Of a DNA stretch of 64,000 bases, positions 31,621 to 53,363 are shown piece after piece. Both the position numbers and the translations under genes were made by a program. Position 1 is the first letter of the stretch. Each line of letters opens with the position of its first letter. Source of the DNA: Candidatus Bathyarchaeota archaeon (GTDB lineage Archaea > Thermoproteota > Bathyarchaeia > Bathyarchaeales > SOJC01); NCBI GenBank assembly GCA_023131225.1, contig JAGLZW010000033.1, forward strand, positions 1 to 64,000, given 5' to 3'. The notes beneath the pieces were generated by a model. It was not told where the DNA came from, did not search any database, and saw nothing but the letters and a program-made list of their open reading frames with translations.

Positions 31621-31803
31621 TCAAGCGAAGTAAGCTATGCCTCCTGTTAGGTCTGGTCGGCCCAGCTTCAAAGCTGCAATCACAACGGCGTAAAACACGC
31701 AGAACGCTAGGCTGGTGTGGATGCCCGCGTTGTCTAAGCCTTTCCACGTGAACTGGTCATAGGCTAGGTGGTTCTTCAAAGTTGAGATGAAGACCAACTC
31801 TCC
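31621..31803 (-). pseudogene. Transposase C-terminal remnant
   Basis: A frame of about 60 codons with no start codon encodes LKNHLAYDQFTWKGLDNAGI, a LAFCVFYAVVIAALK helix and LGRPDLTGGIAYFA before a TGA. The layout (polar stretch, GL.N...H..L, a hydrophobic helix, LGRPDL) resembles the C-terminus of IS4-like DDE transposases. The upstream catalytic part is absent. It is a degraded insertion sequence end. Confidence 0.5.
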
Positions 31804-31866
31804 GCATAAACATTCCAGAATTATTTAATTCGCCCGCGCGCGCATTTTTTATGGGTCAACAAATCA

Positions 31867-32847: not shown

Positions 32848-32868
32848 TAATAAGCTTCCTTGAGAGGA

Positions 32869-34078: not shown

Positions 34079-34957
34079 CTATCTTATGCAACGCATGTAG
34101 ACTTGAGCAAGCAGCATCCGAATTTTGTTTTTTAGTTTTCTCCTCGGAAAGATATCCCTAACATAAGTTAGGTTTTCGCCTTTTGGAATAAACTGCATAT
34201 CGCCTATACCTTCCTGAGAGGCAAGCACGATGTGTTTTACAGATCTCGGATTTAGTCCCAGAATTTTCGACGCCGCGGCGTCAGTTGCCACTGGATCCTC
34301 ACTTGCCATAACTAGTCCAAGCTGCTTTGTGTTGACTCCGTTCACGACGATACCATCCACGACGACTAGACCAGTTTTTATTAGTTTGTTTACGCCCACG
34401 ATAGCTTCATTCAAAGCCCTATGATAAACGAATTTTTTACTGAAGGCGTTACATCCATAGATGTTTTTCAACGCGCACGTTACCTTTACTCCCGATTGAT
34501 ACTTAATTTTGGGAACATTAACCAACATATCCGACTCACGAAAAATCTGAGGCACCCGAAATTGGAAATAATAATCTCTGATCTTCACCTCAACATTTTC
34601 GCTTTTCTCTTTACTAAGATTAACCAACTTGACGTCTTTCTCTTTAGCCATCTTTTCATAGCCAAGCATTTTAAAGACATGTTTACATCTCATAGCAGAA
34701 GCATCAGACTCAACAACAGAAACGTCCATATCTGAAGATAATCGTTCCCTTAAAACGTCAATGAGAGCGCCCACAAATTTAGAATCAGTAGTTTCTCCAG
34801 TGGAGTAATCATAGTAATAGCACAAATTTGGCTTTATCACGATTTTTTTGGGATGTTTTTCCAAACTGAATTGTATAAGATCCAGAGACTTGCTAATAGC
34901 ATTTTTAACGGAGATATCGTTTGGCGCTTGGGCACGGACAAAGCTTACGAGGCTCAA
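34079..34957 (-). CDS. DUF362 protein (copy 1 of 3)
   Basis: A 292-residue DUF362 domain protein without the ferredoxin-like Cys pairs found in some relatives. Conserved blocks are KIVIKPNLCYYYDYSTGETT, VVESDASAMRCKHVFKMLGY, VNVPKIKYQSG, TCALKNIYGCN, VVDGIVVNG and EDPVATDAAASKILG. The biochemical function of this family is not established. The TTG at 34957 is chosen because copy 2 begins with the same TTG-coded SLVSFV; the earlier start would overlap the upstream oxidoreductase gene. It follows that gene by 37 bases, forming one of three such pairs. Confidence 0.8.
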   Translation of the reverse strand: MSLVSFVRAQAPNDISVKNAISKSLDLIQFSLEKHPKKIVIKPNLCYYYDYSTGETTDSKFVGALIDVLRERLSSDMDVSVVESDASAMRCKHVFKMLGYEKMAKEKDVKLVNLSKEKSENVEVKIRDYYFQFRVPQIFRESDMLVNVPKIKYQSGVKVTCALKNIYGCNAFSKKFVYHRALNEAIVGVNKLIKTGLVVVDGIVVNGVNTKQLGLVMASEDPVATDAAASKILGLNPRSVKHIVLASQEGIGDMQFIPKGENLTYVRDIFPRRKLKNKIRMLLAQVYMRCIR

Positions 34958-34994
34958 AACCAACTCAACCAGAACAATAGATAAATCGCTGTAA

Positions 34995-35993
34995 TCAAGA
35001 GTCAAAACGCAAGGCGTTTTCATATGCCATGGAAATAATTCTTAGATCTTGAAGAGCTTCTTCTCCAGATGGACTAGGTGAAATATCTGTATTCACACAG
35101 TCGACGAAGTACTGGAGTTCTTTGAAATAGCGATCAAGTGAACGCTCGATCTTTCCAACTTTCCTTCTAAGATCGTCAGCAATAATTCTCACCACGCTGG
35201 GAGAGGAACGAACTACAGACGCGTGTTTAACTGTTCCATACAGCTCCACGCTTACTTTAGGATCTTTCGAAAACCAGCCCACGGTAATAGTCGCAAGCAA
35301 CCTATCTCTAAATCTTAGAAGACACATTGCGTGATCTTCAAAGTCCATGTTGAATCTGTATCCTAGGTAGCTTTTTGCATCGACGGCGTCTCCAAAATAC
35401 CACCTAAAAAGACTTACCAAATGAACCCCTAAATCCAAAAGGGCTCCGCCGCCCATCATCTCCTTGTTGAACCACCATGCGGGCACGGGGGAGGGTCTAC
35501 CGAGTTCGCCCCTTGGAGAGAAGGGGCCTGCACTTATATTAGTCGCATAAGCAAGTTGTATATCACCTAACGTACCGCTTTCTATTTTGCTCTTCAACTT
35601 ATTGAAGTCCTCACTGAACCGTGATGGGTATCCCACCATAAGTTCTATTCCTTCGCGTCTAACATGAGATAGAACCTGTTCTCCTTCTGCTGGATTTCTA
35701 GCCAGAGGCTTTTCTAAGAAAATGTCTTTTTTTGCCTCAGCAGCCCTACACGCACATTCGCAGTGAAGGAAATTGGGTACTGCTATTATGACTGCATCGA
35801 TGCTCTTATCATTAAGTAACCTATTGTAATCAGTTTGAATGTTTTTGATTCCATTTTCTCTAGCAAATTTCAATGCTTTTTTGGATGAATCGGCCACCGA
35901 GACTAGTTTGGCGTTTTTGAGTCGAAGACAGTTTTTCAAATGAACTTTCCCAATTGATCCTAAGCCTATTATGCCTAAATTCACGTTTCTCAA
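34995..35993 (-). CDS. Gfo/Idh/MocA family oxidoreductase (paired with DUF362, copy 1)
   Basis: A 332-residue NAD(P)-dependent sugar oxidoreductase. N-terminal Rossmann motif GIIGLGSIGKVH (about 7-18), FLEKPLARN (about 92-100) with the catalytic Lys, and the substrate-side GGGALLDLGVHLVSLFRWYFG (about 176-196). The family oxidises or epimerises hexoses, inositols or UDP-sugars at position 3. Two paralogues at 48033 and 52320 share AYATN...GPF and PVPAWWF-like blocks, and all three sit next to a DUF362 gene. It lies upstream of DUF362 copy 1 on the same strand. Confidence 0.88.
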   Translation of the reverse strand: MRNVNLGIIGLGSIGKVHLKNCLRLKNAKLVSVADSSKKALKFARENGIKNIQTDYNRLLNDKSIDAVIIAVPNFLHCECACRAAEAKKDIFLEKPLARNPAEGEQVLSHVRREGIELMVGYPSRFSEDFNKLKSKIESGTLGDIQLAYATNISAGPFSPRGELGRPSPVPAWWFNKEMMGGGALLDLGVHLVSLFRWYFGDAVDAKSYLGYRFNMDFEDHAMCLLRFRDRLLATITVGWFSKDPKVSVELYGTVKHASVVRSSPSVVRIIADDLRRKVGKIERSLDRYFKELQYFVDCVNTDISPSPSGEEALQDLRIISMAYENALRFDS

Positions 35994-36060
35994 GCCTGCA
36001 CACCTTTCTTATTGTTGCGGCGCTCACCACAATTAATTCCCTTTTTTGGCGCCATTTGTA

Positions 36061-36789
36061 CTATTTGATCTTAGCCATAATTCCGATATTGGATCCAAAA
36101 AGGCACATTAATCTGTCGTATCTTTCAAAAAAACGCATAAATCTTAGGAGACTACTCTCATTTGATGGCGTCCTATTGCTCCAGTCCATTCTCTTAAGAC
36201 TGAGAAATGGGATGTGAATAAAATCTGTACCACGTATATCCAATATTTCTAAATCGCTTCTCTTGAATAACTTTTTAACCTTGAAATAATGGAAAATATG
36301 CAGTCCATGTCTGCGGCCACCTTCACCTATAAGAGACCACAACCAAAGTTCTAATAACTGGGTACTTATATAGTTAGGAACTGTGACAAATAAATAACCT
36401 GATTTTTTAGTCACTCTTACTAGTTCCTGAAAAGCTTTGGTAAAATGAGGTATATGTTCCAACGCTTCTGAGCATACAGTTACGAAGCCTGAGCCATCCT
36501 TAAATGGCAGAAACTGGGCATCCCCAATCACGAAATCCACGTTTTTATGATGTCTCGACCTTCTTGCCAAATTCTTTGCTTGTCTAATCGAACTTGATGA
36601 GAGGTCAAGTCCCACTACATTTTGACATTTTTCTGCCATCCTTATAGAAAAACCGCCCTTTCCACAGCCAACTTCTAAAATACTCTCAATATCTACGGAA
36701 ATGTTTGACTTCATCATCCTCAATATCAATTGATACCAAGGATCAGCCAGCGAAAGTTTCCTTTTGATCATCAAATCAGAAAAATTCAC
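36061..36789 (-). CDS. Class I SAM-dependent methyltransferase
   Basis: A 242-residue enzyme with motif I ILEVGCGKGGFSIRMA (about 37-52), motif II VVGLDLSSSSIRQAK, the acid loop VIGDAQFLPFKDGSG, and VTVCSEALEHI (about 104-114). The lid and C-terminal part (RRHGLHIFHYFKVKKLFKRS) fit methyltransferases acting on small molecules or glycans (UbiE/Methyltransf_11 type). Located just upstream of the MocA-DUF362 pair on the same strand, 68 bases apart, and so probably modifies a surface sugar. Substrate unknown. Confidence 0.82.
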   Translation of the reverse strand: MNFSDLMIKRKLSLADPWYQLILRMMKSNISVDIESILEVGCGKGGFSIRMAEKCQNVVGLDLSSSSIRQAKNLARRSRHHKNVDFVIGDAQFLPFKDGSGFVTVCSEALEHIPHFTKAFQELVRVTKKSGYLFVTVPNYISTQLLELWLWSLIGEGGRRHGLHIFHYFKVKKLFKRSDLEILDIRGTDFIHIPFLSLKRMDWSNRTPSNESSLLRFMRFFERYDRLMCLFGSNIGIMAKIK

Positions 36790-36832
36790 ACTGAAACCTC
36801 ACCAGTCTTTACACATATTACCTCTTCTCAAC

Positions 36833-37216
36833 TTACAAAGATAAAGCATGCGTAGAAAAAAAGAAAGGGGAGTCCATCCAAATATTGTGTTCCCATGAAG
36901 AAGTAGCTATCCGTGCTCCATAGTTGAGCAAATACTCTCCGGGAATGGTGAATCCAACCCATTTACCTTTCGGGTTATTTCTAGGGTACACTTTGAAATG
37001 TAGCACATAGCCCCAAGCGGTCTCCAATCCTAGTTCATCTATTGTCCACGTCAAGAGTAGCACGTCCCTTTCTCTTGCCTATCTTCTCCACAGTCACCGT
37101 CCTAAGAGGTGGAGAAATCAACCGTACACGGGAGAGAATATCAACAAGCAAGGAAAACGAGCTTTCGTCAACTGCATGTTCAGAGGGAAACTCGTCGGTC
37201 ACCACAACAGGTTTTC
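36833..37216 (-). pseudogene. Degraded coding remnant of a possible exported protein
   Basis: Two overlapping minus-strand frames look protein-like in sequence. The upstream one reads VTDEFPSEHAVDESSFSL and VRLISPPLRTVTVEKIG up to a TGA. The second, one frame over, reads TWTIDELGLETAWGYVLHFK, NNPKGKWVGFTIPGEYLLNY and ends STHALSL. Together they may be one gene broken by a frameshift. No family is recognised, and non-coding chance frames cannot be excluded. Confidence 0.35.
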
Positions 37217-37326
37217 TTTTCTTTTAGATACACGAGTTTTTGAAGCGTCTTCTTTCGCTTCTACAGCCCGTGGATATGAATGACAGTTTCGGATATCTAA
37301 AAAAAAAAGGAGGTTTGATCGTGGTT

Positions 37327-37348
37327 CTAGATGAACCGTTTCATCTAG
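37327..37348 (-). terminator. Palindromic hairpin after secreted-protein gene
   Basis: A perfect 9-bp inverted repeat (CTAGATGAA, loop CCGT, TTCATCTAG), 29 bases after the end of the 37377 gene. Likely terminator or mRNA-stabilising hairpin. A palindromic regulator site is an alternative. Confidence 0.5.
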
Positions 37349-37376
37349 TCCACAGGCTCATGACCAGCTGCCCAGT

Positions 37377-38333: not shown

Positions 38334-38579
38334 TTCTAACACCTAAGTTTTGCGTGAAATATGTTCTGTTTCAGGAGATATAAATATTGATGAAAGATAA
38401 TTATAGAAGAAAAGTCTAGTTCGTGAGGTTTCTAAATACTTGATAGGGAAATCTTGAGCGATAGTGTAGGGGGTGAACTCCCCTACGCGCATACACAAAC
38501 ATTTTTTGATTGAATGATCAAAGAGAATACGCGTAACAAAAGAAGTTACCCGCATATATCAACGTTCCAAATTGTTTAT

Positions 38580-40049: not shown

Positions 40050-40166
40050 GTTGGATGGAAGTGCTTTCAATTTCCCAGCTCCTGAAAGGCAGCCTAATAG
40101 TCATGCATTTGGTTTACAGTTTTTATCAATTCAAGATGGAATCTTGTACAAAACATTGCGCACGCA

Positions 40167-42317
40167 CTAATAGTCACTTCTGAGCGTAAAGAAGATTTCG
40201 CTACCTCCATTAGTGTATATCTTGTTAAAGGCTATCAGGCTAGAACTCAAGTCACTGGTATTCCACACATGCCCAAACACATATCCTCGTCCAAAAATCT
40301 TGCCATCAATTGTGTTGAATTTCCTCAAATACACGTATGCGTTCGTGCGATCGAAAGAGGTTGCATTAGTAAGTATCTCTGTCTGGGCTCTTGGAAAAAC
40401 TGCATAACTCATCAGTGGAAAGGATACTGATACTACATCTGCATAGATTAGTGTGTTCGCAGTTAAAACTATGTTTGAACGCACCCATCTAGTAGCGGAT
40501 ACATCAACGGATTCGGTCAAATATCCAACACCATAAAAAAGTACTCTGTCAATCCTGTATCTGCTCAGAGATATTGAATACGATGTATCTCCAGTTATTT
40601 CGTAGACGAAACCTGTTTCAAAAAGAAAAAGGGACGCAACAACAACAGTAGTCAAAAAAAATGGTGCGAAGTTTCTTCGAAAGCGAAGGAAAAAAGAAAA
40701 AAAGGAGTTACCTCCTATCACACAAAAAGGCGCCAATAGCAGAAGCGATATGTGATAAGTGCGAGTAACGTTCAACAAATTGAAACTTGGAGCAACCAAG
40801 GGTAACAATACGAATACCAGCATGGCCAGAGACATTACAACATATTCATGATCGAACCTGTCGCTAGTCTTTCGTTTCAGGACAACAATCACAACGCCCA
40901 ATACTATAAAGAATTGCACTAAATAGTGAAAGCCTCTCCCAAACCAGTGTCCTATCGACGTTGCAGGTTCTCCCACGCCAACCGCCCTTAAGACATGTCC
41001 CGGACGAGCTGAAGGAGCCAAAAGATCGTCCCAAAAGTTTCTTTGTATGTTTTCCCCCATTTCAACCAGTGATACAAAGCTAGCTGATTGAGAAGTATAT
41101 ATATACCAAGAAAAAGCCATCACAACGAATAGTACGACATGCGTGAGCGTAATTACAGATTGTTTCTTTCGGATGAACGAAACAAACCATGAAAAGAAAA
41201 TGAGGATCAAAAAAACGTAGGAAATCCCATAGTGACTCACAATCATTCCCACACTGAAAATTGTAAAGAAAAGCATTTTGGTGGTCGGACTGATTTTTCT
41301 GTGAAACACTACTAACAATGACAAGACTAGAAAAAGTTCGCTAATCATCTGAGTAGGTAGACCGGGCAGCTCATAGAAAAATGTCATACCAGCAAGAATG
41401 ACAAATGTTGCGACAAAAGCAGCTTTCTTTTCCATGTATTTTTGATACAACTGATACAAGCCGACAGGCACAAGCGCAAATATCATGGGGTAAACTATCT
41501 TGAATATCCATGTCCCCTCTAGATCAAGAATTTCCGCGTATATTGCCGGGAAAATGGTCACGCTTAACATTTGACTTGTTCGGAGAACGACAGCGTCACT
41601 CGGGCGTAAATTCCATATCCCATTCTCGCGAGTGTTCTCAAAGACATAATAAGCTGGGTGGACATCATAGCCAACAATGTAATTTGATACTAAAGACCCA
41701 TGGAGCAAAATCGCAACACTAATCATAAGTAGAATAAAGGGCCAGCTCGTTCCAGATCTAATAGAACCTATGAGAACCGCTAGCGCAACAGTTCCTATCA
41801 GTAGAAGCAAAATCACACTATTTCCGTTGAAATTTGCCAGAGTTGTCCCTAGTATTGCGAGAATTGGTAGACAGACAGACAAGACCAAAGGCAACGAAAA
41901 ATCGATTTTTTCTTTGCTTCGTTGTCTATTCTTGTTAAGAAGGAAGCAAAGTACGCAAAGGAATGAAACTGTGGAGTTCATTGCAAGAAGCAAAATGGGA
42001 GTAGATAGAATGGCTACCTGAAATAAAAGACCAATCACATTCAGCATTAGCCCAAGAACTAGGCTAAAGACTACGCTCAATCCAACAGAAAACAAGAATT
42101 TTTCCGCAGAATCAAGACCAGGTAGCTTGAAGAAAAGGAGAAGAATCATCCCTGGTACAATAGTCAAGTAGATGAAACCTAAAACTTGCCTTGCAATAGG
42201 AACGTCCAGCAGAATTGCTACATCAACTAGAATTTGGAGATTAATGATTGCCAAAATAAGTGTAATCCAATCTCTATTCTTGTTGTCCACCAATCGCTTG
42301 TCACTTTTGTATGTCAT
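40167..42317 (-). CDS. Large multi-pass membrane protein (DUF2206-like)
   Basis: A 716-residue protein with about a dozen membrane helices in the first 550 residues and an exported C-terminal domain of about 150 residues (RYRIDRVLFYGVGYLTESVD, TEILTNATSFDRTNAY). The layout and the run of DWITLILAIINLQILVDVAI then GFIYLTIVPGMILLL match archaeal DUF2206/DUF1616-type membrane proteins, often found with GTs and thought to be GT-C glycosyltransferases or flippase-like proteins. It lies within the glycan cluster. ATG at 42317 is chosen, 37 bases after a TATA-like element. Confidence 0.75.
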   Translation of the reverse strand: MTYKSDKRLVDNKNRDWITLILAIINLQILVDVAILLDVPIARQVLGFIYLTIVPGMILLLFFKLPGLDSAEKFLFSVGLSVVFSLVLGLMLNVIGLLFQVAILSTPILLLAMNSTVSFLCVLCFLLNKNRQRSKEKIDFSLPLVLSVCLPILAILGTTLANFNGNSVILLLLIGTVALAVLIGSIRSGTSWPFILLMISVAILLHGSLVSNYIVGYDVHPAYYVFENTRENGIWNLRPSDAVVLRTSQMLSVTIFPAIYAEILDLEGTWIFKIVYPMIFALVPVGLYQLYQKYMEKKAAFVATFVILAGMTFFYELPGLPTQMISELFLVLSLLVVFHRKISPTTKMLFFTIFSVGMIVSHYGISYVFLILIFFSWFVSFIRKKQSVITLTHVVLFVVMAFSWYIYTSQSASFVSLVEMGENIQRNFWDDLLAPSARPGHVLRAVGVGEPATSIGHWFGRGFHYLVQFFIVLGVVIVVLKRKTSDRFDHEYVVMSLAMLVFVLLPLVAPSFNLLNVTRTYHISLLLLAPFCVIGGNSFFSFFLRFRRNFAPFFLTTVVVASLFLFETGFVYEITGDTSYSISLSRYRIDRVLFYGVGYLTESVDVSATRWVRSNIVLTANTLIYADVVSVSFPLMSYAVFPRAQTEILTNATSFDRTNAYVYLRKFNTIDGKIFGRGYVFGHVWNTSDLSSSLIAFNKIYTNGGSEIFFTLRSDY

Positions 42318-42353
42318 ACTCACTGTCTCTGACCCATATCGTAAGACAAGAGA

Positions 42354-42363
42354 CTTTATATAC
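42354..42363 (-). promoter_or_regulatory. TATA-like element between divergent genes
   Basis: CTTTATATAC on the plus strand, GTATATAAAG on the minus. Position is 37-46 bases before the DUF2206 start, suiting its promoter; it could also serve the divergent gene at 42464. Composition and spacing only. Confidence 0.4.
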
Positions 42364-42463
42364 GGGTTTGCTCTCTTGTACAAAGGGAGAACACATAAAC
42401 ACTAAATCATGTAGGCATAGGTTTTTAATCTATATTTATGATAGAATAGGAAGTGTAAAAGGT

Positions 42464-43966
42464 ATGTGCACCCCGAAATTCAAAATGACTCTGGCCGTCA
42501 TTGTTCTTTTTACGATTCCTCTTCTTGTTTCAGCAATAGCACCGTTAACGAGTTACTATACTATTTTTAGTTCAGGGTCAATTGCTTCATCTGAAACTCA
42601 ACAAGCATCCACTTATGAGAGTGAAATGCGAGCTCTATTTGTTCACGGTTTGAATATGCTTTATCCAGATTGGGAAACAATCTGTGACACTGTACAGGGC
42701 TATGGTGTCAATAGTATTGTTGTTGAAGTTCTGTACACTTCAGGTTCTCGGTATCCAAGTAATTATGTGTCATCTTATACTAGAGATGAATTAACTCCTG
42801 CTATACAAGCTACACACTCTCGAGGGATGAAACTACATGCCTCGTTCAACGTTCTTTTAAGTGCATTGAGCGATGAACATAAAGCTGTAAGCTCAAGCGG
42901 AACATTATGGGATTGGACTGACCCAACAAATCCTACAGCTTTAACTCATTTGAGAAACTTGACTGAGGAACTTTGTTCTTTTCAAGTCCAGAGTGGAATT
43001 CAAGCTGGAGATACGATAGACGGATTTATGCTTGACTACATAAGATATGATAATAACGATATGCCATATGGAGAATATGCACGGCAAAAACTAGAAACAT
43101 ATCTGGGTGAAGCAATAATAAATTGGCCCGGTGATTTTGCACCTGGAATGTCAAGACACACGGAATTTCTAGAGTGGAGAGTAACCATTATTGATGATTT
43201 AGTAGGAGATATGCAAAGTTGGGCATTAGGAGTCAATCCTGACTTAGAAATCTCAGCAGCTGTTTGGGGTTGGCCGCCAACAAATCCTACGTATAACAGA
43301 ATGTGGATAGGACAAGACCAGAATAAGTGGATTAAAGAAGGATGGTTAGACTTTGTTTCCCCAATGATTTACACAACGGATATAAGCACAATAGCTGCGA
43401 TGATGCAAGAATATCAAGAATATATGGTAGCGGGACCAGAGGGAAAAATTCCTCTAGTTCCTTTCATGACTAACTGTTTCCCTGCCACCGTACCTGCCGA
43501 CCAATTCAAGCAACAGATCGACACTATTAGAGCTAACGGAGCTGACGGATGGATTATCTGGCGTTATGGTGGACCAGGCGATGGACAAGGCTCAGTTGCC
43601 CCTGACATTAGGGATTATCTCAATCTAATTGATTTACCTCAGGTCTTCTCGTTGAGAGAGATAGAAGTTAATTGTACAGGTCGTAATGCAACGATTACTT
43701 GGACCACAGATAAGCCGGCTACCAGCACAGTTGAATATGGCACATCCCCATTATTCAATGCATCTTACGAATATCTATCGATGAATAACTTCCATTACTG
43801 GAACATTGACCATGTTGAAGGAACCATAATAGAAGATACTACACCAGTTACGAGTCACATGATAACTCTGACAGGTTTGCAGGAAGGAACACTTTATTAT
43901 TACCGCGTACAAAGCCAAGATTCATCCGGTATCACCACCACCAAGGTCTACACCTTTAAACCTTAG
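42464..43966 (+). CDS. Exported glycoside-hydrolase-like protein (GHL10/PF02638-like) with Fn3-like tail
   Basis: A 500-residue protein: signal peptide MTLAVIVLFTIPLLVSAI (about 7-24), the short SGSIASS stretch, then a TIM-barrel of about 350 residues. Barrel marks are ALFVHGLNMLYPDWETICDT, DGFMLDYIRYDN with the likely catalytic acid, SPMIYTTDI and GADGWIIWRYGGPG. The C-terminal 95 residues form an Fn3-like domain (NATITWTTDKPATSTVEYG, YYYRVQSQDSSG). These proteins probably cut a polysaccharide outside the cell. The following gene is a tandem paralogue. ATG at 42464 is chosen for the signal peptide. Confidence 0.82.
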   Translation: MCTPKFKMTLAVIVLFTIPLLVSAIAPLTSYYTIFSSGSIASSETQQASTYESEMRALFVHGLNMLYPDWETICDTVQGYGVNSIVVEVLYTSGSRYPSNYVSSYTRDELTPAIQATHSRGMKLHASFNVLLSALSDEHKAVSSSGTLWDWTDPTNPTALTHLRNLTEELCSFQVQSGIQAGDTIDGFMLDYIRYDNNDMPYGEYARQKLETYLGEAIINWPGDFAPGMSRHTEFLEWRVTIIDDLVGDMQSWALGVNPDLEISAAVWGWPPTNPTYNRMWIGQDQNKWIKEGWLDFVSPMIYTTDISTIAAMMQEYQEYMVAGPEGKIPLVPFMTNCFPATVPADQFKQQIDTIRANGADGWIIWRYGGPGDGQGSVAPDIRDYLNLIDLPQVFSLREIEVNCTGRNATITWTTDKPATSTVEYGTSPLFNASYEYLSMNNFHYWNIDHVEGTIIEDTTPVTSHMITLTGLQEGTLYYYRVQSQDSSGITTTKVYTFKP

Positions 43967-43986
43967 AAATCTGGATTTGGAAAGGT

Positions 43987-45522
43987 ATGAAAGAAATGCA
44001 TTTTTCGAAGTTTAGAGTGGTTTTAGTTGTTATAATTTTGTCTACGATTCTTGGCACTAGTTTGGTAATGGCCCAGTTCAAGATGTATTATACTATTTCA
44101 AGCTCAGGGTCAATTAGCACGGACGGGCGCATTTTGCATTATAAAATGACTGATAACAGTGAAATACGGGCCGTATTTTTCCATTTCACTTCATTAAGTG
44201 CGTCAAATGATTGGAATTTGATAGTTAACACCCTTTATGATTATGGCATTAATTTACTGGTAGTTGAAGGAATGATGCCCAAATATGCGGGTTATCCAAG
44301 TGATGTTATATCTGCAAGTGCTGGTTTAGACTTCATAAACGAAGCTCTAGAAGTGGCTCATCCTCTTGGAATAGAAGTTTATGTAGCTATGAACGTTCTT
44401 TATCAGACTCCCAACCCAGAATGGGGTTGCGTTGATAGTCAAGGTAATTTCATCGATTGGCTCTGTCCAACAAAACAAGAGGCCAGAGATTATCTAAGAG
44501 CCATCGTTGAGGAACTTGTAACGAAATATCCTAACATAGACGGATTCATGTTTGACTATATCAGGTGGGAATGGCAAGGTAGTGTTCCTGATATGGATTA
44601 CTCTGAAGAGTCAAGAACAGCATTAGGAAACTGGTTGGGTGAAACAGTAACGAATTTTCCAGGAGAATTCGCCCCCAGTGGCTCTCGTTACAATGAATTT
44701 TTGGAGTGGCGAGTAGAAGTAATTACTCAGTTATTAGTAGATATCATTGGTTGGATGAAAGCTATCAAGCCAGATTTGAAAATTTCGGCGGCTCCTTGGA
44801 CTATACTCAAAACCGGACTTTCATATGAATGGGCTGAACGGCGTAAATTAATTGGACAAGATTGGACAGATTGGGTGATGAAGGACTATTTAGACTGGGT
44901 TGCTCCTATGGCATATTTTTATCCTAATGAACTAGAAACTTTCTTGCGACCATGCGTTAAAGCAGATGTTGAATTAGGAGTAGGAGGCCCAGAAGGAAAA
45001 ATCCCTATGATAATATTTGTAGCCAATCAATTTCCAATACTTAAAACTCCTGAAGAATTCAAAGCAGAAATTGACATACTTCGGGAAGAAGGAGTTGATG
45101 GTTGGATAATTTGGAGATATGGTGGTCCAGGCGCTGGCGGGTTAGATATCAGAGATTATCTAAATGCCCTTAATCTTTCTCCAGTTTTTTCGATGGAAGG
45201 AATAACGGTTTATCTAAATGAGCAGAATGAAAGCGCAACAATTACATGGACCACGAATATCCCAACTATCAGCAGGGTTGAATATAGCATATCTCCTTTA
45301 TTTAACGTAAATTGGCAATATGACTCAAAATGGAACTTCAGCTACTTGGACATTGAGCATATTGAGGGAGAGGTCGTTGAGAATCTTCAACGAGTAATTG
45401 ACCATAGTATAACTCTCGCTAATCTAGACCCAAATGCAACTTATTATTTCCGTGTGCAGAGTCAAGATTCAGGAATTATAACTAGCAAAGTCTATGAATT
45501 TTCAATAAGTGGCTTAGTATAA
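43987..45522 (+). CDS. Exported glycoside-hydrolase-like protein, tandem paralogue
   Basis: A 511-residue relative of the 42464 product, 20 bases downstream on the same strand. Signal peptide VVLVVIILSTILGTSLVMA, YYTISSSGSIST, barrel blocks FFHFTSLSASNDWNLIVNT, DGFMFDYIRWEWQG, APMAYFYPNELE and VDGWIIWRYGGPGAGG, then an Fn3-like tail with SATITWTTNIPTISRVEYS. The order of strands and the two acidic blocks are kept, but the active-site edges differ, suggesting specificity drift after duplication. Likely cotranscribed. Confidence 0.82.
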   Translation: MKEMHFSKFRVVLVVIILSTILGTSLVMAQFKMYYTISSSGSISTDGRILHYKMTDNSEIRAVFFHFTSLSASNDWNLIVNTLYDYGINLLVVEGMMPKYAGYPSDVISASAGLDFINEALEVAHPLGIEVYVAMNVLYQTPNPEWGCVDSQGNFIDWLCPTKQEARDYLRAIVEELVTKYPNIDGFMFDYIRWEWQGSVPDMDYSEESRTALGNWLGETVTNFPGEFAPSGSRYNEFLEWRVEVITQLLVDIIGWMKAIKPDLKISAAPWTILKTGLSYEWAERRKLIGQDWTDWVMKDYLDWVAPMAYFYPNELETFLRPCVKADVELGVGGPEGKIPMIIFVANQFPILKTPEEFKAEIDILREEGVDGWIIWRYGGPGAGGLDIRDYLNALNLSPVFSMEGITVYLNEQNESATITWTTNIPTISRVEYSISPLFNVNWQYDSKWNFSYLDIEHIEGEVVENLQRVIDHSITLANLDPNATYYFRVQSQDSGIITSKVYEFSISGLV

Positions 45523-45749
45523 GAACTACCCGAAGAAACCTGATACATGCAAAGTCAGAAAATATTCATAATAGTATAACATTCGTAAATTCCGATTAGC
45601 GCATTAGAATGTTATGCGTATAGAATGGTTAGATGTCAAATTAGAAAATGAAAAAACCTTGCGCACACTTTGCGTTAATATATAAGCGACGAAAAAAACT
45701 AATAATCTTGCTAAAGGCTGAAGCAGACGACCTTTTTTCTGATTTGTGT

Positions 45750-46967
45750 TCACTCCGGGTTAACTAAACCTTTTGACCTTTGCGTGCGCACGATCCTGTT
45801 ATTCGTTCCAAAAAGCAAATTGTGATAAACTATGTTTAGCTGCCTAACAATTTTCTCCCAGTCATACTTGTTGAGTACGAGTTTTCTTGCGGCTTCCCCA
45901 AGTCTCATCGACAATATCCTATCCTTCAGCAATTCGATCACTTTGACAGTGAATTCATTCATATCATCTTCGATTAAGACGTTCACTTGACTCTTGACGT
46001 CTAAACCCTCTACGCCGACAGTCGTTGATACCACCGGAAGACCGCATGAAAAATATTCAAGAATCTTTAACCTTGTACCCGATCCATGGAATAACGGGGC
46101 AATGGCAATGTCGGAAGCATTAAGAAGCTCAGCGACATTCTCAACAACCCCTGTAAAGGTTAAATTAGACGACTCCACTTTTACATGATTTCTCCCGACT
46201 ATAAGAAACTTTGTATTGTTAATCTCTTTTTGAACTTTCGGGGCAATCTCTGAAGCTATCACTTGAACAGCTTCTTGATTAGGTAAGTACTCCATGTTTC
46301 CAACAAAAGTTACTGTGTGAAAATTTCTCAAATCATATTTATTCTGAACATTTGTTATATCTGATGAAGGATTAAAGGCTTTAGTATCCACACCATTAGG
46401 TATTACTTCAATATTACGTCGTCCAATTCCATAAGAAGCCAAGTACTCTTTTTCTTTTTCGGAAACAGTCAGTATCACGTTCGCATGTTCATAAGCTATC
46501 TTCTCCAAAAAGGTTTCTAAGATTTTCCTTAGCATGGTTGTGTGTTTTATCCTCAATGCTTGAAATGTGTCATGGCAATCAATAACAAGTGGTTTTTTTA
46601 GGATTCTCGCTACAATTGGGATTAATAATCCACCAGCTGACTGCTGTTCTATCTGTACTACGTTAGATTCTCGAATTATTCGAATAGCCCTTGAAATAAA
46701 TAAAAAGTCATAAAAAAGAAGAGATGTAGGTCTTGACACACCTAGTAATTTGCCAAAGATTTTTAGAATTACCTTTGGAAAGAAACCCTTGATACCGTGG
46801 ACTATCAATCCATCGATATGCTCATGTGTCACTCTATCGTTTGGGATTATTATGTGAACCTTGTGGCCAAGCGATACAAGACCTTTTGCCAAATTATAAA
46901 TGCGTACAGATGGGCCCATATCTTTCAACATCAAATCTTTAAAACAACTCAAAATACAGATTTCCAT
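45750..46967 (-). CDS. GT4-family glycosyltransferase
   Basis: A 405-residue GT-B enzyme. The N-terminal lobe has GPSVRIYNLAKGLVSLGHKV (about 18-37) and VIDCHDTFQALRIKHTTML. The C-terminal donor lobe has VTFVGNMEYLPNQEAVQV, DIAIAPLFHGSGTRLKILEY with the retaining-GT acid (EX7E-like: SGTRLKILEYFSCGLPVVST) and VGVEGLD. It adds a sugar from a nucleotide donor to a glycan acceptor. It begins the second half of the minus-strand glycan run. Confidence 0.9.
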   Translation of the reverse strand: MEICILSCFKDLMLKDMGPSVRIYNLAKGLVSLGHKVHIIIPNDRVTHEHIDGLIVHGIKGFFPKVILKIFGKLLGVSRPTSLLFYDFLFISRAIRIIRESNVVQIEQQSAGGLLIPIVARILKKPLVIDCHDTFQALRIKHTTMLRKILETFLEKIAYEHANVILTVSEKEKEYLASYGIGRRNIEVIPNGVDTKAFNPSSDITNVQNKYDLRNFHTVTFVGNMEYLPNQEAVQVIASEIAPKVQKEINNTKFLIVGRNHVKVESSNLTFTGVVENVAELLNASDIAIAPLFHGSGTRLKILEYFSCGLPVVSTTVGVEGLDVKSQVNVLIEDDMNEFTVKVIELLKDRILSMRLGEAARKLVLNKYDWEKIVRQLNIVYHNLLFGTNNRIVRTQRSKGLVNPE

Positions 46968-47113
46968 TTTAAAATCTCACTTGTCAAGTATGAACTTAAC
47001 TACCTATTCAGATCAATCTCGTGTGAGATCTTGGTCATCCTCATAGTGTAGGATTAAAGCGCGCGTGAGCAGACGATATGGAAAAGCTGCTGAATCGTGC
47101 CCACAGATATAAC

Positions 47114-48007
47114 CTATTTCCCCAAATAGCCTATCAAAAAACCGAGACACCAAGCAGTCATTTTGAAAGTAAAGTGAATCGGCAGCAGAAAGACTACTTT
47201 TCGACGTAACAATCTGTAGGCTGGAATAGCATATAGTACTCCTGCTATGAAACCTGCAAAAGGAGTCATCTTGAGAAGGGAAAAGATTCTCCTATTCTTA
47301 AGATATAGATCATAATCACCGTGACCATACCAAACATACTTTTCCCAAATAGCTTTCCACGTCTTACTACGCTGCTCATAAAATACAGCGTTAGTTCTGC
47401 AAATTGACCAACCAGCCTCTTTAATTCTAAAGGCAGCGTCTTGATCCTCCCCAGTTCCTTTTAGGTGGTAGTCGAAGCCCCCCACTTGATTTATAGCTTC
47501 CACCCGATAAATTGAACCACCGGTTCCTGGAAGTTTAGAAGCAGTTTTCCATTCATTTCCGCTATGTATATCGTCCACTAAAAACGGAATGTTTTCAAGA
47601 GTGGCAATCAGATTTTCCTCTGGAAATGCACCATATTTTGCTTTAGCAATGCCAACCATAGGGTTTTTCTCCATGTATTCAACTTGCTTTCGCACATGAT
47701 CTGTTGGTAATACAATGTCACCGTCCACCCAGACGATGTAGTCACTTTTTGCATTATCTACCACGATGTTTCTTGCAGCTCCTAATCCCATCCATTTATT
47801 ACGAAACACTTTGACTTTAACATCCATCCTCATGATGTACTTTTGTATAACTGAAAAAGTTCCATCTTCGCTACCGTCGTCTACAAAGATCACTTCCATA
47901 AGCTCATGAGAAAAATTCTGATTTAGAACACTGTCAATAGCTTCTTTGAGTGAAGCTTCACAGTTTTTCACGCAAATCCCTATGGTAACTGTAGGTCTCA
48001 TATGCAT
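47114..48007 (-). CDS. GT2 glycosyltransferase with membrane tail
   Basis: A 297-residue GT-A enzyme. PTVTIGICVKNCEASLKEAI (start), VIFVDDGSEDGTF, the metal-binding YIVWVDGDIVLP, and TGEDQDAAFRIKEAGWSICR with the catalytic acid. One or two C-terminal hydrophobic helices (FAGFIAGVLYAIPAYRLL, and the last 30 residues) may tether it to the membrane. Donor and acceptor are unknown. It lies 24 bases downstream of the MocA-type oxidoreductase gene. Confidence 0.85.
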   Translation of the reverse strand: MHMRPTVTIGICVKNCEASLKEAIDSVLNQNFSHELMEVIFVDDGSEDGTFSVIQKYIMRMDVKVKVFRNKWMGLGAARNIVVDNAKSDYIVWVDGDIVLPTDHVRKQVEYMEKNPMVGIAKAKYGAFPEENLIATLENIPFLVDDIHSGNEWKTASKLPGTGGSIYRVEAINQVGGFDYHLKGTGEDQDAAFRIKEAGWSICRTNAVFYEQRSKTWKAIWEKYVWYGHGDYDLYLKNRRIFSLLKMTPFAGFIAGVLYAIPAYRLLRRKVVFLLPIHFTFKMTAWCLGFLIGYLGK

Positions 48008-48032
48008 CACTCAAAAGTCATCACAGAATGTA

Positions 48033-49037
48033 CTAGGATGCTTTTCTCAAAGGTACGCCATTCTCATAGGCTAGGGAGATTGTTTCCAAATCCTTAAGTG
48101 CATCATCTCCAGAGGGAGCAGGTTGCAAGTCATGTCTTACACAATGAGCAAAGTATCCAAGCTCTGAAAGATAGGGAAGGTAAAAACTTGGGGTCCTTCT
48201 TGTGAGAAGCTGAAGAATCGTGATTGCCTTACTCGGAGGAGCGTGTTCAGCATAATCATGTTTGACAGTTCCATAGATTTCTACTTTTGTTTGGCTTTTT
48301 TGGGAGAACCAGCCAATGTTAAGGATCACGGTTTTTCCTGTTGCAAACCTGACTAAGCATACTGCATGATCTTCAGCGTTCATGTTTAGTCTATATCCAA
48401 GATAACATTTGATGTTAGATACTTCGCCAAAGTACCATCTTAATAAATTAACCATATGGCTTCCTGAATCCATTAGCGCACCGCCACCGGTCAATTCCTT
48501 CCTGAACCACCACGAAGGGACAGGACGTGGAGAGTAACCGTCAGCCCGATGCATGAATGGGCCCGGTCCTACATTAGTAGCATAAGCAATCTGTACCTCA
48601 CCAAGTATACCAGTTTGCATCTTTTCCTTGAGGGCCTGAAACGAAGAACAAAACCTAAGATGATAACCTACCATCAGCTTCACTCCGTTTTTTCTAGCTG
48701 AAGATACCATCTCTTTTCCTTCTGCCACATTCCTAGCCAATGGCTTCTCTACAAGGATGTGCTTTCCTGCTTCCGTTGCCTTTCTAACGCAATCTAAATG
48801 AAGATGGGTAGGCAGAGCTATTATAACCGCATCTACATCGTCATCTTTCAGAAGTTGTTGGTAGTCCTGGAAAGTGTTTTTTGCTCCGAGCTTCTTGGCA
48901 GAACTCAATGCTTTTTTGGAAAGGTCAGAAACTGCTGAAAGCTCTGCAGATTTGAGTTTTAAGCAGTTTTGAAGATGAATTCTCCCAACGTATCCTAAGC
49001 CGATTAATCCCAACTTGGTTCTTCCCATTTTTGCCAT
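48033..49037 (-). CDS. Gfo/Idh/MocA family oxidoreductase (copy 2)
   Basis: A 334-residue paralogue of the 34995 and 52320 products. Rossmann motif LGLIGLGYVGRIHLQ (about 8-22), ILVEKPLARN with the catalytic Lys (about 95-104), PVPSWWFRKELTGGGALMDSG, and the terminal ENGVPLRKAS. It follows DUF362 copy 2 (49062-49958) by 24 bases, in the opposite gene order to copies 1 and 3. Probably acts on a nucleotide sugar or inositol in the surface glycan pathway. Confidence 0.88.
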   Translation of the reverse strand: MAKMGRTKLGLIGLGYVGRIHLQNCLKLKSAELSAVSDLSKKALSSAKKLGAKNTFQDYQQLLKDDDVDAVIIALPTHLHLDCVRKATEAGKHILVEKPLARNVAEGKEMVSSARKNGVKLMVGYHLRFCSSFQALKEKMQTGILGEVQIAYATNVGPGPFMHRADGYSPRPVPSWWFRKELTGGGALMDSGSHMVNLLRWYFGEVSNIKCYLGYRLNMNAEDHAVCLVRFATGKTVILNIGWFSQKSQTKVEIYGTVKHDYAEHAPPSKAITILQLLTRRTPSFYLPYLSELGYFAHCVRHDLQPAPSGDDALKDLETISLAYENGVPLRKAS

Positions 49038-49061
49038 CCTCTGCCTGGTTAAACTAGGGCT

Positions 49062-49958
49062 CTATTCTGAGAGACCAAGTAGTTCGTTTAGACCTGTGTC
49101 GACTAAGAATTTGTACCCGAAGCTCAAGAGTGTATGAAACGGTCCTTTTCTTGGATAAATACTGCTAAAAGAACGGGGATCAATCCCAACTGGAGAAAAG
49201 GAAAGCGCCCCTATTCCCTCTTTATTGGCCAACATGATATGCCCCACCGACTTGGGATTCACTCCAGCTATTCTGGATGCAGCAACGTCCAGCGCCACTG
49301 GATCGTGGCTAGCCATAATAAGCCCTAGCCTGCGCGGATGGGCACCAGAAACAATGATTCCGTCAACAACGCACAGATCGAATTTCATAAGCTTATTTAT
49401 TGCGACAATGGCCTCGTCAAGCTTTTGGTGATATTTGAATTTTTGAGGGTAGGGATTACAACCAAAGATGTTCTTTAAAGCACACGAAATTCCTGTCTGT
49501 GCCAAATACTTTATTTTAGGAACATTCACTCGCAAATCAGCCTTCTGGATTGTTTGAGGTACAACTATGTTGAAGTAATGGCCTCCAACATTAATCTTAA
49601 ACGTATCGCCCTTATCTTGAGATAGATTAACCAAATCTACTCTGTAACGCTGTGACAGTTTCTCGTACCCAAGCATCTTAAAAGCGTACTTGCATTTCAT
49701 CGCTGAAGCATCAGACTCTACAATTGAAATATTCACATTAGACGAGATTTGGTTTCGGATGACCTCGATCAGAGCGCCAACAAAACTTGGATCGGTGGTT
49801 TGCCCAGTCGAATAATCCCAGTAATAACACATGTTGGGCTTTATCACAACATTTCTTATATCTTTCGGGAATCTGTACTGAATCAAGTCTAGAGAACTCG
49901 AAATGGCTTGTCTCAGGTGATGAGATTGTTGAACTGCAACAAAGCTTACTAAACTCAA
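49062..49958 (-). CDS. DUF362 protein (copy 2 of 3)
   Basis: A 298-residue DUF362 protein starting at TTG (LSLVSFVAVQQ-type start). Same conserved blocks as the other copies: VVIKPNMCYYWDYSTGQTTD, VESDASAMKCKYAFKMLGYE, VNVPKIKYLAQTG, CALKNIFGCNPYPQKFKYHQ, VVDGIIVSG, SHDPVALDVAASRIAG. No iron-sulfur cysteine pairs are present. Placed immediately upstream of MocA copy 2 on the same strand. Function unknown; the shared order-variable pairing implies joint action. Confidence 0.8.
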   Translation of the reverse strand: MSLVSFVAVQQSHHLRQAISSSLDLIQYRFPKDIRNVVIKPNMCYYWDYSTGQTTDPSFVGALIEVIRNQISSNVNISIVESDASAMKCKYAFKMLGYEKLSQRYRVDLVNLSQDKGDTFKINVGGHYFNIVVPQTIQKADLRVNVPKIKYLAQTGISCALKNIFGCNPYPQKFKYHQKLDEAIVAINKLMKFDLCVVDGIIVSGAHPRRLGLIMASHDPVALDVAASRIAGVNPKSVGHIMLANKEGIGALSFSPVGIDPRSFSSIYPRKGPFHTLLSFGYKFLVDTGLNELLGLSE

Positions 49959-50095
49959 ACTAAACTCTCCAGAGGATAAGAAGCTTTACGAGTTTTAATC
50001 CACAACATTTCTTCAAATGAGATAAGATGATGTTTTAACAATCCAAGGGTGGGAAGAATCGTTCCACCAGTCAATCCAACAATTCTGACTAAGGT

Positions 50096-51268
50096 CTAAA
50101 GTAGATTTTCCTTTTCAAGCATGTCTCTAGTCAAAAGTGATCTTGACTCTTCTAAGGTATTCCAAAAGATGAACCTTCTTCTCAATAGTAATGCGAACAA
50201 TGCACTCAACAGAATACAATTATTCTGTATTACCCCGAAAAGAAAACCCCTACTCTTAGGCAGAAGAAGCGTTGCCAGAAATACCGAAGTCAAGATGACG
50301 GAGTACAACTGGAAATCTGAAATCATGATCAAAGTTGTGGCGGCAAATAGAAGAAAGACTATAGGGTTGAAGAGATAAAGAAAAATTTCTGGCATGGCTA
50401 TCCGTTTTGGAAGATGCAATTGATTCTTTACTAGAAGCTTCAAGCATTTTGCGTAGATTTGCACAAGCTGAGTGGCTCTTCGCAACTTTGTAGAGACCAA
50501 GCCTCTCCAAGTAAAAGGAGAGATGTCAAAGCAAGTAGCTTCTGGAATGAATATAGTTCTAGCTCCTTTCTGTACAATATCTAAAGCGGTCCCTGAATCG
50601 TCCGTCTCATGATTGAATTCGTCGAGAACCTCTCTCTTGTACGCACCGAAAAGTCCGTGGAAAACTATTGTAGAATGAATCTTTGATTCCCCAAGCCTAA
50701 TTACTTCAAACGTAAAGTTTAGATAAGTTTCTTCGGTTTGAGTAACCCAAGACTGATTAGAATTTAGCACTTTTTGCCTGCCAATAACAGCTCCAACTTT
50801 CGGATCAGCTAAATAGGGCAATGTCTCAGTCAAGATATGTGTAGTCCAAAAAGCGTCAGCATCGGATATAACCACGATATCGTGTTTTGCGCGTTTTAAC
50901 GCGAGGTTAAGAACTCCTGATTTTCCTCTACGTTCGGTTTCACTCAACATTTCTACACTTAATTCTGGGTGTAGGTTGAGGAATTTGACCGCTTTTTTTA
51001 TTGTGTTGTCTGTTGAGGCATCATCTATCAATATGATCTGCATTTTTTCCTTGAGATAACGAACATTGCACAAATTCTCTAACTTGAACCCTATTGTCTT
51101 CTCCTCGTTGTGTGTAGGGATTATGATCGTTATTGGTGGATTGTATTTTCTGTCAATCTTTAAGTTCCATGGTCTAGAGGCAACTCGCCGTAGATACAGA
51201 AAATATAGGCCTGGGACGCCAAAAAAAATTAGACAGAGAAGTAGCCAAACGATTATTATAAGGTTCAT
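50096..51268 (-). CDS. Membrane GT2 glycosyltransferase
   Basis: A 390-residue enzyme with an N-terminal membrane helix (LIIIVWLLLCLIFFGVPGLY), a GT-A domain (ITIIIPTHNEEKTI, IILIDDASTD, VVISDADAFWTT, ETDDSGTALDI), and two C-terminal membrane helices around 285-345. The Q/R-x-x-RW-like motif appears weakly as TKLRRATQLVQ, so it may transfer single sugars or be processive. The gene lies between DUF362 copies 2 and 3 on the same strand. Confidence 0.82.
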   Translation of the reverse strand: MNLIIIVWLLLCLIFFGVPGLYFLYLRRVASRPWNLKIDRKYNPPITIIIPTHNEEKTIGFKLENLCNVRYLKEKMQIILIDDASTDNTIKKAVKFLNLHPELSVEMLSETERRGKSGVLNLALKRAKHDIVVISDADAFWTTHILTETLPYLADPKVGAVIGRQKVLNSNQSWVTQTEETYLNFTFEVIRLGESKIHSTIVFHGLFGAYKREVLDEFNHETDDSGTALDIVQKGARTIFIPEATCFDISPFTWRGLVSTKLRRATQLVQIYAKCLKLLVKNQLHLPKRIAMPEIFLYLFNPIVFLLFAATTLIMISDFQLYSVILTSVFLATLLLPKSRGFLFGVIQNNCILLSALFALLLRRRFIFWNTLEESRSLLTRDMLEKENLL

Positions 51269-51377
51269 TTTTCTACTTCATCTCTAAGATAATTTTTAGA
51301 ACACCAAAATTGCCTTCCCAAAAGCTTCACTAGAAATGCTCTAACGATACAAAAACTGTTTGTCATTCCGATTTCAT

Positions 51378-52304
51378 CTAAACTTCTTCTAGAGCGGGAG
51401 GAATAACATCTTTAACAATTCTGTGATATAACTTAAGTAATTGGAGTTGGAAGTTCCACCAATGCTTTGATGAAAAGAAGTTTTCCTTAGGGAAGGTTTT
51501 CTTGAAAGTTATTAGGTTTTCTCCACGAGTCTTGATGCCTTCTAATTTCCCAAGTTTTTCTTTCATTGCAATTTTTAAGAATTTGATTTTAGAGGGATTG
51601 TATCCCATTATTTGAGAAGCAATCCAATCGACTGAAAACGGGTCTACACTTACCATAATAAGACCGAGTTCGATAGGAAAGCGGCCCAGTGCGACTAATC
51701 CATCGACTATGATGAGGTCTGGATGCAAGATCTTGTTTATACCAACGATAGCTTCATCTAAAATTGGATGGTAAACTATTTTCCTTGGAGAAGCTATGCA
51801 ACCAAAAAGGTTCTTTAGAGCACAGGTGATTTTGGTATCACGCATTGTTTTTAATTTTGGCGCATTAATGAACAGGTCGGATTTTAATAATGATTGAGGA
51901 ATTTGAAAGACAATTTCATGTCTGTTTACACGAACCGTCTCTTCGTGGGTTTCATCATTGGAAAGATTAAAAAGCTCTACACTCTTTTCCCTAGCCAATT
52001 TTTCATATCCCAACATTACGAAGGCATGTTTTGTTCGCATGGCCGTAGCGTCAGCCTCGACAATGCGGATATGTATACCCGTGCCATATCTTTCGCGAAG
52101 ACAATCTATGATTCCAGCTACAATTCGGGGGTCCGTGGTATATCCTGTTGCTGCATGCCAATAATAACACAAGTTTACCTTGATGTCAACAGATTTTACT
52201 AAGCTCTTAGGCTTAAAATCTATGAGATCCAACGCCTTGCCAATAGATTTCTTTATGTCCTCCTCTGAATTGTGCGTTCGAACTAGACTAACAACGTCGC
52301 CCAT
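51378..52304 (-). CDS. DUF362 protein (copy 3 of 3)
   Basis: A 308-residue DUF362 protein, slightly longer than the other two at the C-terminus. Conserved blocks are VDIKVNLCYYWHAATGYTTD, VEADATAMRTKHAFVMLGYE, INAPKLKTMRDTKITCALKN, LFGCIASPRK, VDGLVALG and SVDPFSVDWIASQIMG. Aligned residues near DYSTG become HAATG here, so the ligand may differ. It follows MocA copy 3 by 15 bases. Function unknown. Confidence 0.8.
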   Translation of the reverse strand: MGDVVSLVRTHNSEEDIKKSIGKALDLIDFKPKSLVKSVDIKVNLCYYWHAATGYTTDPRIVAGIIDCLRERYGTGIHIRIVEADATAMRTKHAFVMLGYEKLAREKSVELFNLSNDETHEETVRVNRHEIVFQIPQSLLKSDLFINAPKLKTMRDTKITCALKNLFGCIASPRKIVYHPILDEAIVGINKILHPDLIIVDGLVALGRFPIELGLIMVSVDPFSVDWIASQIMGYNPSKIKFLKIAMKEKLGKLEGIKTRGENLITFKKTFPKENFFSSKHWWNFQLQLLKLYHRIVKDVIPPALEEV

Positions 52305-52319
52305 TTTAATACTGCTTCC

Positions 52320-53363
52320 CTAAGTAAATTGCCTTTCACCAAAACCCTTGTAGGCTTCTTCAATAAGTTCAATCGTTTTTAATCCGTCCATGGCTGAAAC
52401 GGATGGTTCAGAATCGTTCTTTACACATTCAAAAAAATGCTGCAACTCCTTATAGTATGACTCATAATAATACGAATAAGAAAGGGGCCTTATCTTCTTT
52501 CCAACAACTTTTCGAAGAAAATTCTTTGCTCCCTCCTTGACAGCATGCAAAATAATATTCCTCGGCACAAGATCATCGCTAGACATGTACCCCGCATTTC
52601 CATGGAGAATTGCCCTGAAATTATATTCTGGAAAAACCGATTTTTGATACCAACCAACATTGATAATTCCCTTAACAGAAGAATCAGATGAACATAGTAT
52701 CGCTATTGCACCGTCCTCGAAAGGGAGATTAAATTTGTGATCAAAACAAGAAAACAATATCTTGCCATCCATGCCCACGAAAAAACGGAATAAGTCAATA
52801 AGATGATAACCTAAATCCAGTAATGCTCCTCCTCCGGTTTTCTTAGGATCAAACCACCACTCAGGTACAGGTGCAGGAACCGTTCCGTGGGCGAAGGGCC
52901 CGCTAAGTATCTGCTCAATTGTGACAACCTCCAGATTTCCAATACGACCCTTGTCTGCCACTACCTTCATTTTTTCAATTGCATCAATAAACCTCATACA
53001 ATGACCGACCATAAGCTTCTTGCCGCTTGACTTCACCAACTTCACAATCTTGCGACACTCTTTCACATTCCTAGCCAACGGTTTCTCTACAAAAATATCA
53101 AGTCCAGCTTCCAACGCCAACTGAACGCTCTCAAGATGTAAAAAGTTAGGTAGAGATATGATGACTGCATTCACATTAGAAGAATCATTCAACAAATCAT
53201 GATAGTCCATGTAAAGATTCTTAACGCCAACAAGCTTCGCCTTCTTCAAAGCTCTTTTCGATGAATCAGCTGCAGCAACCACTTTGATACCATCGACATG
53301 CAGACAATTCATCATATGCAACCTGCCCATATGCCCAAGCCCGATTATACCCACATTCAACAT
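52320..53363 (-). CDS. Gfo/Idh/MocA family oxidoreductase (copy 3)
   Basis: A 347-residue paralogue. VGIIGLGHMGRLHMMNC (about 4-20), IFVEKPLARN (about 91-100) with the catalytic Lys, VPEWWFDPKKTGGGALLDLG, and a longer basic C-terminal part around KEGAKNFLRKVVGKKIR. It is the most divergent of the three copies. First gene of the pair with DUF362 copy 3, and of the minus-strand glycan run overall. Confidence 0.88.
   Translation of the reverse strand: MLNVGIIGLGHMGRLHMMNCLHVDGIKVVAAADSSKRALKKAKLVGVKNLYMDYHDLLNDSSNVNAVIISLPNFLHLESVQLALEAGLDIFVEKPLARNVKECRKIVKLVKSSGKKLMVGHCMRFIDAIEKMKVVADKGRIGNLEVVTIEQILSGPFAHGTVPAPVPEWWFDPKKTGGGALLDLGYHLIDLFRFFVGMDGKILFSCFDHKFNLPFEDGAIAILCSSDSSVKGIINVGWYQKSVFPEYNFRAILHGNAGYMSSDDLVPRNIILHAVKEGAKNFLRKVVGKKIRPLSYSYYYESYYKELQHFFECVKNDSEPSVSAMDGLKTIELIEEAYKGFGERQFT

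Follow-up and report, generated by a model that had tools for sequence, protein, structure and literature searches.

Three times within one glycan gene cluster of an archaeon of the Bathyarchaeia, a gene for a Gfo/Idh/MocA oxidoreductase (M) lies beside a gene for a DUF362 protein (D), which raises the question of whether the two proteins of each pair act together and, if so, in what reaction. The window, meaning the whole stretch of 64,000 nucleotides analysed here (positions 1 to 64,000 of contig JAGLZW010000033.1, Candidatus Bathyarchaeota archaeon, assembly GCA_023131225.1), belongs to contig 33 of an archaeal genome of 1.9 Mb, and its positions 1–387 represent an archaeal 16S fragment. 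All six genes of the three pairs are located on the minus strand. Pair 1 is transcribed in the order M1–D1, with M1 at 34995–35993 (Pfam PF01408, E 3e-25, plus C-terminal domains) and D1 at 34079–34957 (PF04015, E 4e-37; start set by homologue alignment); pair 2 in the order D2–M2, with D2 at 49062–49958 (PF04015, E 1e-39) and M2 at 48033–49037 (PF01408, E 2e-28); and pair 3 in the order M3–D3, with M3 at 52320–53363 (PF01408, E 1e-25) and D3 at 51378–52304 (PF04015, E 3e-34). An earlier sequence-only reading of this DNA had singled out the same three pairs (34995/34079, 48033/49062 and 52320/51378) as lying on one strand in both gene orders, and the Pfam assignments and transcription order agree with it.

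The three D proteins scored 119–137 bits against PF04015, where the gathering cut-off is 24, and M1–M3 each exhibited a Rossmann domain for nicotinamide adenine dinucleotide (NAD) and a Gfo/Idh/MocA C-terminal domain above the curated cut-offs. The listed ATG start of D1 at 35023 adds 22 residues that are absent from every homologue; the TTG at 34957 is the better start because homology begins there, and D1 is therefore more likely to occupy 34079–34957, which would leave no overlap with M1. The window genome contains eight matches each to DUF362 and GFO_IDH_MocA, one of the DUF362 matches (L007) being a LarA protein, and a crude estimate puts the chance of three adjacent M/D pairs at ~2e-5. 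As the three copies are paralogues, the independent evidence for coupling is to be sought in the conservation of the pair in other genomes.

When 250 genomes of the phylum were surveyed and named genomes scanned, about 45 close D genes were recovered, spanning the Bathyarchaeia, Asgard archaea (Sifarchaeum, Borrarchaeum) and methanogen-related archaea, and M adjoins every one of them whose neighbouring DNA could be read; the exceptions are two contig ends (L078, L086) and one locus (L088) where M begins next door and enters masked sequence. The arrangement of 43 pairs comprised 26 D–M, 16 M–D and one divergent pair, and the intergenic gaps were mostly below 40 bases or the genes overlapped. 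Additional pairs, obtained by surveying the phyla that contain L096 and L093, included five divergent and seven M–D cases. M and D are also fused into single proteins, in the order M–D in three Bathyarchaeia and in the order D–M in eight Asgard genomes, and Pfam confirmed both domains in one fusion of each order. In a tree of 104 D domains, the coupled state occupies two main clades, and the coupled/uncoupled state needs 7 changes compared with a mean of 35 when shuffled, in a sample picked by similarity to D, whose proportions of coupled and uncoupled proteins are not those of the whole DUF362 family. The 54 more distant DUF362 proteins had no M in the flanking 1.5 kb that was read on either side. 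The prospect that DUF362 members would mostly be found without MocA neighbours, which the sequence-only reading had named as damaging to its own proposal, thus turned out to be true of the distant members and false of the coupled clade. A plasmid search gave three distant relatives, one of which (Halomarina) has the MocA–DUF362 pairing; this plasmid (NZ_CP119994.1; L116, L117) carries two such pairs, with one MocA split into two overlapping frames. In-frame stops in some distant matches were set aside, as they looked like alignments overrunning gene ends. It is virtually certain that M and D are functionally coupled, as had been proposed and as the fusions in both domain orders and the divergent pairs bear out, and the two almost certainly perform one joint sugar-modifying reaction.

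The histories of the two partners were also observed to run in parallel. D1 and D2 share 54% identity, with D3 at ~42% to both, and M1 and M2 share 50%, with M3 at 36–41% to both; because the D and M copies show the same relations, the pairs appear to have been duplicated as units. Among 43 pairs from the window and related genomes, tree distances of D and M correlated at r=0.96, whereas 2000 permutations of the labels gave at most 0.21, and the two trees had 21 of 40 bipartitions in common, so that the anticipated co-duplication is recovered in the phylogeny of both families. Three subgroups were apparent, the D2-like members arranged as D–M, the D1-like as M–D, and the D3-like as M–D with order changes (L084, L087, L095 and L096 are D–M); these arrangements imply that gene order switched more than once while adjacency was retained. 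The trees indicate that the three window pairs are one ancestral pair duplicated whole, with order swaps later. The claim that coupling did not reflect a single inherited operon therefore stands in part: one ancestral pair was indeed duplicated as a unit, and the order swaps followed. Common descent from a single operon was rejected as the sole cause of the coupling, since the order changes, the divergent pairs and the two opposite fusions all keep M and D adjacent. Two loci carry questionable labels: L065, labelled Tenericutes, shares its two-pair locus with Bathyarchaeum tardum (L062) and looks like a mis-binned contig, and the pair of L097, labelled Methanophagales, groups inside the Bathyarchaeia and looks like a mis-binned contig or a recent transfer.

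All M proteins exhibit the GxGxxG motif together with Asp38, the acidic residue after strand 2 that marks the NAD type, and Lys98 of the EKP motif and Asp190 and His194 of the DxGxH motif are invariant in 42 of 42. Among matches in the Protein Data Bank (PDB), the closest solved relatives were dehydrogenases of sugars and inositol, glycoside dehydrogenases of the DgpA type, and the entries 3q2k/3q2i, taken here to be WlbA structures. WbpB/WlbA enzymes oxidise UDP-N-acetylglucosaminuronic acid (UDP-GlcNAcA) at C3, and the WbpB of Pseudomonas aeruginosa recycles its bound NADH with 2-ketoglutarate (PMC8651671, PMC10622841). The best score of M for the archaeal UDP-GlcNAc 3-dehydrogenase was 132–145 bits against a cut-off of 450, and, in a check for WbpE/WbpD neighbours, DegT or hexapeptide transferase genes adjoin the pair at some loci only. 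Elsewhere in the window genome, on contig 26 (46253–47925), a UDP-sugar 6-dehydrogenase directly adjoins a MocA gene in a WbpA/WbpB-like arrangement without DUF362.

For the D partner, a sequence search of the PDB gave no match. An alignment of three sequences yielded a model with a predicted local distance difference test score (pLDDT) of 53, and the final AlphaFold model of D2, made with 45 sequences, reached a pLDDT of 93.6 and a predicted template modelling score (pTM) of 0.90. Against the PDB, all 18 matches with E ≤1e-3 belong to the LarA family (probability 1.00, template modelling score ~0.4–0.5), which agrees with the placement of DUF362 and LarA in the same Pfam clan, CL0471 (PMC11770544); a Foldseek search of viral models gave no significant match. 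The model thus gives D the LarA fold, which the sequence-only reading overlooked and which constrains the chemistry. In LarA, Lys184 and His200 hold the nickel-pincer nucleotide (NPN) cofactor (PMC7583248, PMC12611868). A profile alignment placed Lys162 of D on Lys184 and His177 within one residue of His200; this alignment is weak (hhalign P ~0.02), its low probability reflecting thin alignments, and it served residue placement only. Lys162, Asn163, Gly166 and His177 are invariant in both paired and unpaired DUF362 proteins (69 proteins for Lys162 and His177), and D exhibits a set of invariant Lys, His, Asp and Glu residues. The position of LarA Arg75 is Gly52 in D, that of His174 is residue 152 (Thr, Met, His or Leu), and no conserved His of D was found in the region of LarA His108 (Glu81/Asp83). 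The coupled clade has in addition Cys44-Tyr-Tyr and Cys159, and mostly no longer has the histidine of the KTH motif that is usual in DUF362. The ferredoxin motif CxxCxxCxxxC, and even CxxC, occurs in none of 43 paired D proteins, which extends to the whole set the absence of ferredoxin cysteines remarked earlier for the window copies.

Taken together, each M–D pair is probably one two-component enzyme that alters a sugar ahead of glycan assembly or in the course of it, and the two proteins would more probably than otherwise act sequentially on one sugar. In the mechanism proposed here, M would oxidise one ring hydroxyl of a glycan-precursor sugar to a ketone, with the NADH remaining bound; D would take the ketosugar and alter a neighbouring centre, most likely by epimerisation, with elimination or another step possible; and M would then give the hydride back, reducing the product of D. 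We infer the common substrate, the order of the steps, the epimerisation and the return of the hydride; if the hydride is returned by M, no outside redox partner is needed, and the handover of a reactive ketosugar would explain why M and D never separate and have fused twice. Epimerisation as the step done by D is put forward tentatively. Equally tentative is the fuller version, in which the coupled D clade would be a novel type of LarA-fold, cofactor-linked ketosugar enzyme swapping substrate or hydride with its NAD dehydrogenase partner, as a composite epimerase made of one or two proteins, which Bathyarchaeia, Asgard and other archaea might use for unusual surface sugars. A composite enzyme is consistent with each M having one D as its partner, with fusion in either order, with the absence of a conserved redox partner and with the biosynthetic clusters that house the pairs.

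The surrounding genes are of the kind expected for sugar modification, and the glycosyltransferase, methyltransferase, deacetylase and sulfatase-like genes from which the sequence-only reading had drawn this setting were confirmed by Pfam. On the minus strand of the window, pair 3 is followed by a PgaC/IcaA-like GT2 glycosyltransferase of 390 amino acids (50096–51268; Pfam, neighbour clusters, BLAST); a second GT2 glycosyltransferase (47114–48010; PF00535) lies directly downstream of pair 2; a GT4 glycosyltransferase (PF13439/PF13692) is found at 45750–46967; and pair 1 is flanked by a class I methyltransferase (36061–36789; PF08241) directly upstream and a FemAB-like GNAT of the Acetyltransf_6 type (32869–33912; PF13480) downstream, with a polysaccharide deacetylase at 31867–32847 (PF01522). 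Across the pairs, the neighbours included glycosyltransferases, a Wzx-like flippase, DUF2206 membrane proteins, DegT aminotransferases, WbqC-like proteins, and PIG-L and polysaccharide deacetylases. In neighbour clusters, the orthologue of the GT2 gene at 50096–51268 usually trails pair-3-like modules, and in the Asgard archaeon Sifarchaeum the GT2 protein after such a module is 52% identical to that of the window (BLAST). In those Asgard fusion loci for which a longer stretch was read, two GT2 genes lie directly before the fusion; a hexapeptide acetyltransferase and an exosortase occur near another Asgard pair (L185), NeuB and a cytidylyltransferase occur at locus L193, and the Halomarina plasmid has a row of glycosyltransferase, MocA, DUF362 and epimerase genes. 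The glycan setting thus recurs in several archaeal groups, with glycosyltransferases, flippase, DegT, hexapeptide transferase, NeuB and epimerase. Within the window, two tandem plus-strand genes of 551 and 511 amino acids (42311–45522), with GHL10 glycosyl-hydrolase-like and Pur_ac_phosph_N/fn3 domains, interrupt the minus-strand cluster and likely encode surface proteins; in addition, the FemAB-like GNAT, polysaccharide deacetylase and TIGR03087-like glycosyltransferase (29905–33912 and 45750–46967) recall bacterial PEP-CTERM/XrtA exopolysaccharide loci.

Several observations weigh against the proposed two-component enzyme. Outside the two clades, many DUF362 proteins function with no M beside them, so the chemistry of D does not have to depend on a ketosugar supplied by M, and the carbon oxidised is unreadable from the sequence because M lies far below every NCBIfam equivalog cut-off. 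The three Bathyarchaeial fusions also have less uniform neighbours (a glycoside hydrolase of family 3 (GH3), xylose-isomerase-like genes and hydantoinase), so these fusions may act on another substrate or serve catabolism; fusion L058, near GH3 and xylose-isomerase-like genes, suggests that the substrate or the metabolic direction may differ at that locus. The neighbours of L058 are among the points favouring a different reading, rather unlikely on balance, in which D, as a lyase, a hydrolase or another kind of enzyme, would use up the ketosugar of M and return none of it to M. The elimination by DgpA and the C-deglycosidase paired with it offers an analogue; DgpA, like other glycoside 3-dehydrogenases, is one of the nearest relatives of M with a solved structure, and the invariant Lys, His, Glu and Asp of D would suit acid–base or Schiff-base chemistry. 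However, the main clade resides in biosynthetic glycosyltransferase clusters, and no extra NADH-reoxidising gene is conserved beside the pair.

The LarA fold and the common clan invite a further reading, which we consider improbable as a whole, namely that D is an NPN enzyme like LarA, racemising or epimerising a sugar acid or 2-hydroxy acid by hydride transfer, and that this compound, or the keto form of it, is also the substrate of M. The invariant Lys162 and His177, placed near the NPN-holding residues, speak for it, although these matches depend on the weak alignment described above and the Arg75, His174 and His108 of LarA have no conserved counterparts in D. LarC is commoner in pair carriers (7 of 10, compared with 13 of 51 other genomes of the order, not corrected for kinship), and LarC and LarE are both present in nine other pair carriers; both are, however, missing in the window genome and in the carriers G118 and G178, so that the pair can persist without NPN of the genome's own making. 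A LarA homologue was observed in the window genome (contig 9, 78264–78869; open reading frame 1213–2475 of L007), where LarC and LarE are missing, and it keeps all NPN-binding and catalytic motifs (DxTRP, GTHR, HYYAGFGGGRK and NH), so that NPN might be taken up from outside; in the family of the window genome, LarC is absent from 13 of 13 genomes examined and a Lar_N protein is present in all 13. On contig 30 of the window genome (252–614 and 1979–2578), a Gfo/Idh/MocA gene adjoins a LarA-like (Lar_N) gene, an arrangement reminiscent of the M–D pairing. That M and D are merely co-regulated neighbours in glycan operons, with different substrates or steps, is highly improbable: glycan operons contain many enzymes that do not act together, and most DUF362 proteins outside the coupled clades have no M neighbour, but the fusions in both orders, the divergent pairs, the repeated order swaps with adjacency kept and the mirrored trees stand against it.

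DUF362 is a large and widespread family without an assigned reaction, and none was found in the literature searched; nor did that literature give an account of the M–D pair or its fusions, a paper on archaeal fusions included. Both families are known, and there appears to be no earlier description of their obligate partnership, of its fusions or of the altered LarA-like active site. As one D clade is tied to a well-understood dehydrogenase, with natural fusions in both orders, it offers a direct route to assigning the chemistry, which would reveal how uncultured archaea, Asgard included, make the modified sugars of their surfaces, and whether a LarA fold can function without the nickel-pincer cofactor.

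Compared with known systems, M resembles WlbA/WbpB and the glycoside 3-dehydrogenases (DgpA) in fold, NAD motif, catalytic Lys/Asp/His and sugar setting, whereas its scores fall 2- to 6-fold under the cut-offs of the NCBIfam equivalogs, and its partner is DUF362 in place of the aminotransferase or C-deglycosidase of those systems. The paired D belongs to the DUF362 family (PF04015) by profile membership and by its invariant Lys-Asn...Gly...His core; it differs in lacking the motif of the ferredoxin-bearing members and in its obligatory MocA partner, and it reaches only 45–59 bits against the NCBIfam family Npun_F2552, with a cut-off of 500. D shares with LarA the overall fold and, if the weak alignment is right, would have a Lys and a His at the cofactor-anchoring positions, yet it has ~300 residues against ~425, does not keep Arg75 or either catalytic His, and occurs in some carriers where the cofactor-making LarC and LarE are missing. 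In the RmlC/RmlD system, one protein epimerises a keto intermediate and another reduces it. The M–D pair would follow the same logic of a keto intermediate epimerised and then reduced, but with proteins of unrelated families, and with M both oxidising and reducing.

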